The notes beneath the pieces are model-generated. The model worked only from the letters and a program-made list of their open reading frames with translations, did no database searches and had not been told where the DNA came from. This document shows, in pieces, positions 35,924 to 40,711 of a stretch of 64,000 nucleotides of DNA (position 1 is the first letter of the stretch; every line of letters starts with the position of its first letter). The position numbers and the translations under genes were made by a program. Location: positions 2,356,001 through 2,420,000 of the forward strand of contig CP021221.1 of the NCBI GenBank assembly GCA_003999685.1, written 5' to 3'. This DNA comes from Taiwanofungus camphoratus (taxonomy: Eukaryota > Basidiomycota > Agaricomycetes > Polyporales > Taiwanofungaceae).

Positions 35924-36006
35924 GGCCTTGTAGTGTAGCGGTTATCACTTGAGATTCTGATTTAAATCACCTTCTCAAAACCCAGGTTCGATTCCTGGCA
36001 AGGCCT
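35924..36006 (+). tRNA. tRNA-Gln (anticodon CTG), with 11-nt intron
   Basis: The sequence folds as a complete tRNA. The acceptor stem pairs GGCCTTG (35924-35930) with CAAGGCC (35999-36005), and the discriminator base is T. The D-arm is GTGTAGCGGTTATCAC. The anticodon stem is TGAGA/TCTCA, with anticodon CTG at 35957-35959 flanked by T33 and A37. The T-arm is CCAGG-TTCGATT-CCTGG. An 11-nt intron at 35961-35971 sits right after position 37, the canonical place. The D-arm and T-arm match eukaryotic tRNA-Gln, which supports glutamine. Shifting the stem by one pair would read TCT (Arg), but it leaves a shorter variable loop and G at position 37, so it is less likely. Discriminator base and CCA are as expected (CCA not encoded). 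Confidence 0.92.
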
Positions 36007-36021
36007 CGTATAAAATTTGTA

Positions 36022-36695: not shown

Positions 36696-39600
36696 AATGC
36701 CTCCCCGTGGCGCACCTAAGCCTGGTCGTGGTGGACCTCGCGGAAGGGGAGGTCCTCCGCAACGCGGTGGTGCTCCAGCTGGTGGCACCGCAGGCCTTCC
36801 TTCGTCTAGTGCTCACGTCACCACCATCGGCGTGAAGAGGGCGGCCTTCGGTACCAATGGCCGACAGATACCTGTCTTTACGAATCATTTCGCTGTGAAG
36901 ATACCTGAAGGTGTTATTCACCACTATGATGGTATGTCTCCTTGATGATAACATCATGTTGTCCTTTTGATCTCCCTCTTGCGTCAACGCTCCCGTAGTC
37001 GGTATGTAGTATGAATGTATACAGTTTCCTTGTGATCCAGAAGTTTTGCAGTCATTTCCGGCGATGAAAAGACGCTCCCAGCACGCCTCAATATGCAGCT
37101 TATCAAGCAGTTGCAGGAACATGTTGCTCCAAATATATTCACTCCGAAGGCCGTATATGATGGCCGTAAGAATATGTTTTCAGCAAGAGAATTACCCTTT
37201 GGGCCGACTGGGAGTCAGGAGGTATGCGGTGCGCACACAAATCATACCGTCTCTGATCCATGCATGCCATCCAGTTCGACGTGTCGCTCAACCCGAACCC
37301 CCCACCTACAGCGGGTGGACGCGGACCCAAAATCCACAAAGTACGCCTGACCCATGTCGCGCAGATCAATCCCGAGTACGCGCGATCTCCTTTTTTCATG
37401 GCTGCGGTATAGTGACGCGATGTGTTGCAGGGTTCTTGCTCGCTTCCTCGAGGGGAAGCAGTCCCATGACAATACGGTTTTGACTGCAATCACTGTGCGT
37501 GTTTTGTTCGTCTCTAGTAACCTGCACTTTGACCAATTGGCGGATATAGGCGTTGAATGTCGTCATCCGTATGGAACCGACGCTCAATTACCCTTTCAAT
37601 GTTCGATCGTTCTTTACTGATAGGGAGACGAAGGACATCGGATCGGGGATCGTCCTGTGGAGGGGCTACTTCCAATCTGTGCGTCCCGCCTTAGGAAGGA
37701 TGTTAATTAACGTCGATATCAGCACGGGTACGATGTACAAGCCCGGGCCTTTCATTGACCTCTGCCTCGACTTCCTGGGTAGGCAGGATCCTAATATCCT
37801 CGCCCCTTCACGCGGGTTCCCCGACCGCGAGCGCATCCGGCTCCAGCGTTTTCTATCTGGCGTAAGGGTCGTCACACGGCCTCCAAATCAGCCACAGCAA
37901 GCAGGACAGGGAGGACGAGGCAGACGTACGCCGCGAGTGGTAAAGAAGCTGACGAGTGCAGGCGCGAATGCACTGACGTTCACGTTGCGCGAGGGTGGGC
38001 AGATGACGGTCGCACAATACTTTCAGAGGACGTACAATTATAGATTGAGATATCCCGAGGTCATCTGTGCCGAGGTACCTTTCTCTGAGCTATGTGCGTT
38101 GATGTATCATTCACGTGTTGTGACAGGTGGGCAATGGTGCTCTGATCCCACTGGAGCTGTGTGAGGTGGAGCCCGGACAGATCATGAGGAAGCAGGTGCC
38201 ACCGGAGAAGACCAAGGATGTGCTCGACTTCGCGACCAAGAAGCCCCAAGATCGTTTGAGGAGCATTCACAACGGTCTCGGCGTGCGTCCACTCTGATCC
38301 TTCCTCGTGTCTGTGCCATTGAAATTGAAATCTTGCCTTGTTTCACAGGTATTGGCCTATGGACAGTCGGAGTATGTTCGGGTAACTTGATTCATGATGA
38401 CCTGTAAGTAGGGCGACCAGCTCATACTCTTGGTCGCAGGAATTCGGAATGCACGTAGACCCAAACGCGAGACCGCTTGGCTTTACTGCTCGCGTTTTGA
38501 ACCCGCCAACGCTCAAATATGGACCGGGTAGTAAGCAGGCTACTATCGTATGCTTTCTGTTCATGCTCTTGTCCTGTATTCATTCTGACTTGATCATCAA
38601 TACCAGGTCCCCCGAGACGGTGCATGGAACATGTATGTTTGTTCGTCTCGCATGTTCTTCCACTTGATGATCTTGATGACGTTCAGGATCGATAAACGCT
38701 TCTTTAAGCCTGCGGTAATCGAGCGCTGGGCTGTCGTTATCTACGAGCGACCGCAGCGCTTCCGCGATGACAACGTTCAAGACATGATACAGGGTCTTAT
38801 ATCTGCATGCAATGGCGTTGGTAAGAGACCGCATCATTCTGCCTGGCATTAGTCCTGCGCTAACGCGCCTGCAGGTATTGTTGTGAAAGAGAGAGATCCG
38901 ATTGTTAAATACGAGAACGGACAAGGCAATATCGCCGCTGTAAGTGTTTCGTTGTCTTGGATATGCACCCTCTCACGTTCCTGTAGCAATTGCGAGCGGC
39001 AGGATTGGCGTCCAACGAAAAGAACAAGGGCTTTCCGAACCTGATCGTTGTCGTTCTTCCCGAAGGCGGAACAGACATTTACACAGCAGTGAAGCAGTAT
39101 GTATTTCTCCAATGTACTATGGGATGTTCTCATTGATGTACCTTTAGTTTTGGGGATATTACTGTATGTATCATGTATGGATTGAGGCTCCGATCTAATC
39201 TTTCCGAGTAGACGGGCGTAGCTACTCAGTGTCTGAAGAGCTCGAAGTGCTCTCGGGCGAAGGCGCAGTACTACGCAAACGTCTGCCTCAAGTAGGCAGT
39301 GTTTCGCTTATATTTATTGAATGATATGCTGAATTGTGCATAGAATCAATGTTAAACTTGGTGGGATCAACACCATTCCCGACTCTCGCTCGGTCTCGAT
39401 CCTCACCGATCCACATAATCCGACGATCGTTATGGGGTATGCTACTTCCTTGAAAGACTAGTTCTCGTTCATTGACAATGTGGATCAGGGCGGACGTCAT
39501 CCATCCTGCCCCTGGTGCAGAAGGTCGTCCCTCGTTCACTGCCCTTGTGGCGAATGTTGACTCCGATACGGCGAAATACGTGGCTGACTGTCGTGTACAA

Positions 39601-40711
39601 ACCTCGAGGCAAGAGCTCATCGAGGATCTTGAGAAGATGTCAGAGGTGAGTCGGAGACGCAGTTGATCGTCGCTGATTGGTAGAATGTTTTTCTGTCGCA
39701 GCACATGTTGAATATGTACATGTCCTATCGCAAGAATGCAGAGAAGAAACCGAACGCGGCGCCTAAACGGATCATCTTCTATCGAGGTTAGTGTTTGTCT
39801 ACTTCCTGTGAGCCGTGTTTTCCTCACTGAATTATGAATCACACAGATGGAGTATCAGAAGGCCAGTTCAAGCAGGTGCTTGAGCAAGGTAGGCATGATC
39901 ATGTTCATATAGAATTACCCCTCACGTTCTGATGCGTGTGTGATCTCGCGTTCGTCAAGAGCTGCCACTCCTCAAAAGTGAGTATATTATTTGTCCACAA
40001 TCGAGTTGTACTGATATTTGGCGATATCAGAGGCATGCCAAAATCTCAAAATCAACCCCAGCATTACTGTGGTTGTAGTCGGCAAGCGCCACCACGTGCG
40101 ATTCTTCCCCCAGAACCCTAACGATAGTGACCGAAGCGGCAACTGTCCTGCGGGGACGGTAGTCGATCAAGAGGTTGTTCACCCTCTGGAGTTGGACTGG
40201 TATCTCCAGAGCCACAGTGGATAAGTCACTTTATTGCTTTACGATGATGACTGAGAGTCTAATTGTTTTTCATTATATACGCTGTTGGGCACTTCCCGCC
40301 CGGCCCATTACAGCGTTCTCTACGATGAGAACAACTTTACGTATGCGGATCGCTTTTCTCATGGGTGACCCATTCCTCATTATTTACCATAGGCCGGATG
40401 GGCTTCAGGCCTTGTCTTTTGCCTTATGTCATGTTTATGCTCGCTCTACGCGATCAGTATCCATTCCAGCTCCAGTTTACTGTGAGTGACCTTTTTGATG
40501 ATGGATGGAGGCACTTCACGAGTAGCATGTTCTAGATGCTGATATTGTTTGTGCTCGCGCGAAGAACCATTACGACCCTCAGGGTGGTCTGGAATTTTCC
40601 GATTCTGCGACTCAGCCTGAGGAGGGTGCGGCAGACAGTCGTCTTGAAACATTCAAGCGACAGTTTAAACCCCTGCACAACAATATGAAATACGTGATGT
40701 ATTTCTCGTAG
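36696..40711 (+). CDS. Argonaute, probably slicer-competent
   Basis: This is the RNA-interference effector that binds small RNAs and cuts matching transcripts. Many short introns break up a protein of roughly 900-plus residues. The N-terminus is an RGG-rich tail (MPPRGAPKPGRGGPRGRGGP). Next are the N domain (QIPVFTNHFAVKIPEGVIHH), linker 1 (LGRMLINVDISTGTMYKPGP), PAZ (EGGQMTVAQYFQRTYNYRLR and ELCEVEPGQIMRKQVPPEKT), linker 2 and MID, and PIWI. All four catalytic residues of the DEDH tetrad can be seen: Asp in IVMGADVIHPAPGA, the glutamate finger in TSRQELIEDLEKM, Asp in IIFYRDGVSEGQF, and His in CHVYARSTRSVSIPAPVYYA. A 16-nt microexon (39148-39163) and an apparent AT-AC intron (40221-40280) are unusual. 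No Dicer or RdRP gene lies in this window. Confidence 0.93.

Follow-up and report, generated by a model that had tools for sequence, protein, structure and literature searches.

Intron 20 of an Argonaute gene in Taiwanofungus camphoratus begins with AT and ends with AC, and it is very probably a U2-type AT-AC intron that is removed by the major spliceosome. We infer its splicing, the machine responsible and its origin from the sequence, the reading frame, homology, splice signals and nearby introns of paralogues, all of which are directly observed. The gene lies in the window, the 64,000-nt stretch of contig CP021221.1 that was analyzed (G000:C2:2356001-2420000), which is part of a 33.2-Mb genome in 15 contigs.

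Structure of the Argonaute gene

The gene was modeled by hand, including the choice of a putative start codon (Table 1), and its frame contains no internal stop once the 22 introns are removed. The protein scores above the Pfam cut-off for six families, ArgoN, ArgoL1, PAZ, ArgoL2, ArgoMid and Piwi, with a Piwi score of 311.5 bits. In phmmer it matches human AGO1 at 488 bits, with human AGO1 and AGO2 chains at ~480-488 bits. GT-AG ends are present in 21 of the 22 introns, intron 20 being the exception. These 21 introns are 47-120 nt long with a median of 54, so that the 60 nt of intron 20 are, as originally predicted, an ordinary local length.

Table 1. Features of the Argonaute gene around intron 20 (positions in the window)
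Feature	Position	Strand	Description
Argonaute gene	36697..40711	+	start to stop codon, 23 exons, 22 introns, 910 aa, hand model
Exon 20	40031..40220	+	ends ...LQ SHS G (two of three bases of the codon)
Best in-frame GT-AG alternative	40217..40255	+	39 nt, donor GTGGAT, score 308; judged unlikely
Intron 20	40221..40280	+	60 nt, AT-AC, phase 2
5' splice site ATAAGT	40221..40226	+	+2 to +6 complementary to U1, 5/5
In-frame TAA if intron 20 is retained	40222..40224	+	straight read CAC AGT GGA TAA
Candidate branch site CTAAT	40259..40263	+	branch A 18 nt before intron end; from YTNAY scan, function inferred
3' splice site TAC	40278..40280	+	sequence
Exon 21	40281..40340	+	starts with last base of Gly codon, then LLGTSRPAHY

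A probable AT-AC intron within the PIWI motif

The AT-AC ends at 40221-40280 are confirmed. The intron reads ATAAGT...TTATATAC, and the letters at its two junctions are ...CAC AGT GG / ATAAGTCAC...TTATATAC / G CTG TTG GGC ACT TCC CGC CCG GCC CAT TAC. The original prediction, that the exon frame runs to CAC AGT GG and then meets TAA, holds: read straight through, the frame stops at once, and the model coordinates give a retention product of ~803 aa with a loss of 107 residues. Its further claim that excising 60 nt restores the PIWI motif exactly is also borne out, as removal of the intron yields HSGLLGTSRPAHY, which aligns gap-free with human AGO1 across the junction. The protein downstream of intron 20 is conserved as well as the protein upstream, with identity to human AGO1 of 39/63 past the junction vs 73/140 before it (ungapped, hand-chosen blocks).

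The immediate stop on read-through and the non-standard AT and AC ends could also signify decay, in which the splice sites of intron 20 have been lost and the truncated ~803-aa protein is the only product of the gene. This is exceedingly unlikely, however, as GT-AG is kept in all 21 other introns, the downstream frame is intact for 107 codons, and random decay would seldom leave the sole pair of end bases known to work.

Alternative removals

To place the intron by homology, we enumerated every removal of 35-140 nt that begins within 40060-40299 and preserves an open frame (n = 1939), and scored each against the human AGO1 segment. The top score, 333, is shared by three adjacent 60-nt placements with AA-GC, TA-CG and AT-AC ends, all of which give the identical protein. 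Among these three, AT-AC is the sole recognized splice class; by base composition, the chance of finding AT..AC at one of three placements is ~0.01, and that of ATAAGT..AC is ~3e-5. Next-best removals were ranked among GT-AG, GC-AG, AT-AC, GA-AG, GT-AC and AT-AG pairs. One runner-up is a 72-nt AT-AC removal (40221-40292) that uses the same ATAAGT donor, deletes LLGT and scores 308, 25 raw units lower, and another is a 36-nt GA-AG removal (40220-40255) that scores 307.

The original prediction had left open a GT-AG alternative of about 39 nt that would insert eight residues. Such an intron can be drawn (Table 1): it keeps the frame without a stop, it is the top GT-AG choice of the enumeration, and its product still scores 303.0 bits against Piwi. 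The predicted insertion does not stand as described, because KSNCFSLYT would replace SG beside the GTSRP motif, nine residues for two and a net gain of seven. Use of this intron is very unlikely. Its Piwi score is 12.5 bits below the 315.5 bits of the AT-AC product (a protein truncated at HSG scores 222.9), its donor is poor, it is shorter than any of the 21 other introns, and it breaks a conserved motif that is unbroken in human AGO1 and at six other loci of the genome.

Errors of assembly or base calling might instead conceal a GT...AG intron at the same place as the AT-AC intron. Each end is one base from GT-AG, and AT-AC introns are rare in fungi. An error of this kind would nevertheless require two independent substitutions 59 bases apart that yield exactly A...C, and no single insertion or deletion restores a GT-AG intron together with the motif; we regard it as very improbable.

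Splice signals of intron 20

The donor signals agree with an AT-AC intron of the U2 type. TAAGT at +2 to +6 matches the U1 complement at all five positions, which is equalled by one of the 21 other introns. The A at +4, G at +5 and T at +6 found in intron 20 are features that PMC2831892 names for U2-type AT-AC introns.

A scan for YTNAY finds three sites in intron 20, CTAAT at 18 nt, TTCAT at 8 nt and TTTAC at 39 nt from its end. The same scan detects a site 5-40 nt from the end in all but two of the 21 other introns, the exceptions being introns 1 and 6. CTAAT is thus a candidate branch site of the U2 type, and its distance from the intron end is usual.

U12-type introns are marked by the donor ATATCC(TT) and by a branch site resembling CCTTAAC close to the 3' end. 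Intron 20 has ATAAGT in place of ATATCC, and neither a reading of its sequence nor the YTNAY scan found a CCTTAAC-like site near its 3' end.

Two other accounts of intron 20 were rejected. The 60 nt have a single match in the genome at E<=1, namely themselves, in a search that passes over very common words, and an introner-like origin was dismissed on this single copy. An antisense GT-AG intron, which would read CT-AC, was excluded by inspection because the reverse complement of intron 20 has GT-AT ends.

Spliceosomal RNAs in the genome

Rfam models detect U6 (five matches), U2 (four matches) and U4 in the genome, and the U6 RNA contains ACAGAGA. No U12 or U6atac was found in the genome at E<=0.001, with the tool's controls giving no signal for either model, and no U11 at E<=1. 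The single U4atac match, at 25.9 bits against a cut-off of 53, is ordinary U4, which scores 77.9 bits. The Rfam model for U1 also matches nothing in the genome. U1 must be encoded there, and it may be divergent. Because the U1 model too finds nothing and the controls for U12 and U6atac were silent, the negative result for the minor spliceosome is weakened: the case that U12 and U6atac are absent is moderate, the related U2 and U6 RNAs having been detected, and for U11 it is weak.

The AT-AC termini are shared with U12-type introns, but removal of intron 20 by the minor spliceosome is extremely improbable. Against it stand the donor, the lack of any U12-like branch site close to the 3' end (TTTAC being 39 nt away), the failure to find U12, U6atac and U11, and the loss of U12 introns reported for Basidiomycota (PMC10639083, PMC2846911). 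The original prediction of a U2-type rather than a U12 intron finds support in homology, in the donor and branch signals, in paralogue introns nearby and in the minor-spliceosome RNAs not found by the searches.

Introns in paralogous Argonaute loci

A Piwi search of the genome gave at least 22 exon matches, falling in at least seven loci, the window included. At all six other loci found, a GT-AG intron lies no more than 22 nt from the intron 20 site when introns are placed by hand so as to restore the PIWI motif, and an intron at this spot is accordingly expected. The offset after the LQ codons is 0 nt at the C7 locus and both C14 loci, 10 nt at C13 and 22 nt at both C3 loci; in the window it is 11 nt.

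A small tree built from human AGO1 and six of these loci places the window together with the C3 pair (support 0.945) and unites C13, C7 and C14 (1.000). One C14 locus, L010, whose Piwi match contains an in-frame stop, was left out of the tree. The paralogue intron nearest to intron 20, that of C13, is a phase-1 GT-AG intron 1 nt away, and the introns of the closer C3 paralogues lie 11 nt downstream. Therefore no ancestral GT-AG intron is seen at the exact site, and none of the six other loci has a GT-AG intron precisely there. A one-base shift of the C13 intron through insertion of an A at the donor may also be considered, although it would call for additional changes at the acceptor.

Across the seven loci (L009-L014 and the window), introns thus occupy four positions, 0, 10, 11 and 22 nt after LQ, two in each paralogue group. 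Intron gain, loss or sliding would be frequent at this one spot beside the PIWI motif. In addition to its in-frame stop, L010 (G000:C14:1292500-1297800) has a RARARARPRP stretch in its Piwi match, and it may be a broken copy.

Proposed splicing and origin of intron 20

For the U2-type AT-AC intron, splicing would proceed as follows. U1 would pair with TAAGT (+2 to +6) and with the last G of exon 20, the mismatch at +1 being tolerated, and U2 would select the CTAAT branch site. The donor would then pass to the ACAGAGA box of U6. At the second step, a contact between the intron's terminal A and C would stand in for the usual one between terminal G and G, and exons 20 and 21 would be joined within the Gly codon of the motif. 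The simplest origin would be a GT-AG intron in which the first base changed from G to A and the last from G to C.

Comparison with known AT-AC introns

AT-AC pairs make up 0.019% of annotated fungal splice-site pairs in 130 fungal genomes (PMC7072748), and intron 20 would add to this rare class, which is already known. As described in PMC2831892, intron 21 of human SCN4A and its relatives in other sodium-channel genes resemble intron 20 in their AT-AC ends, in the same donor bases at +4 to +6, and in having a donor other than ATATCC. These sodium-channel introns were derived from U12 introns according to the same source. Unlike them, intron 20 is a 60-nt intron of a compact Argonaute gene whose splicing is predicted, and for it an origin from GT-AG looks simpler.

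Other parallels come from lineages that, by the accounts in PMC2846911 and PMC3033335, lack a minor spliceosome, such that the major spliceosome is the likely agent. The rust Phakopsora pachyrhizi has two non-U12 AT-AC introns vs ~560 GT-AG introns (PMC2846911), and in Caenorhabditis elegans 59 AT-AC introns were called, of which at least 42 are thought to be real (PMC3033335). Those introns are EST-supported or come from intron data sets, whereas intron 20 rests on homology. U12-type AT-AC introns share its terminal dinucleotides but differ in donor and branch site, and the RNAs of their spliceosome were not found in this genome. Literature searches returned no title on an AT-AC intron in a fungal Argonaute among the matches listed, and no paper when ATAAGT, AT-AC and intron were combined.

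An ab initio survey of AT-AC introns covered 296,806 bases (the window, 200 kb of contig C14 and the stretches of six paralogues) and used mock end pairs for control. Its strict form returned one GT-AG and no AT-AC intron. Two loose forms returned 58 and 47 GT-AG and 22 and 13 AT-AC introns, with 11-41 and 6-37 for other end pairs, and missed intron 20. Neither the strict nor the loose results bear on AT-AC frequency in this genome. Searches for relatives in other species found none in genome_contigs (130 pattern matches) or viral_contigs (33), both of which are non-fungal collections.

Significance and other features of the gene

Intron 20 interrupts the PIWI motif of a gene that is intact elsewhere, in a genome where only ordinary spliceosomal RNAs were found. 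It would thus offer a clean natural case of how the major spliceosome accepts A...C intron ends. Gene finders limited to GT-AG would predict a truncated or distorted form of this Argonaute.

The AT-AC ends might also make splicing of intron 20 slow or conditional, so that it acts as a valve on RNA silencing, an idea that we consider unlikely. Spliced transcripts would then give the full slicer, whereas retained transcripts would either be destroyed or give the ~803-aa Argonaute, which ends 107 residues early and lacks the fourth catalytic position.

In exon 23, the alignment places an Asp in YYADIV (40536-40560) where human AGO1 has Arg. We take the catalytic His of AGO2 to lie at this site, which would give the window Argonaute a D-E-D-D set. 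The same set occurs in some other fungal Argonautes. The gene also contains microexons of 16 and 18 nt (39148-39163 and 39960-39977), and a tRNA-Arg with anticodon TCT (35924-36007) lies ~0.7 kb upstream of the start codon on the same strand.
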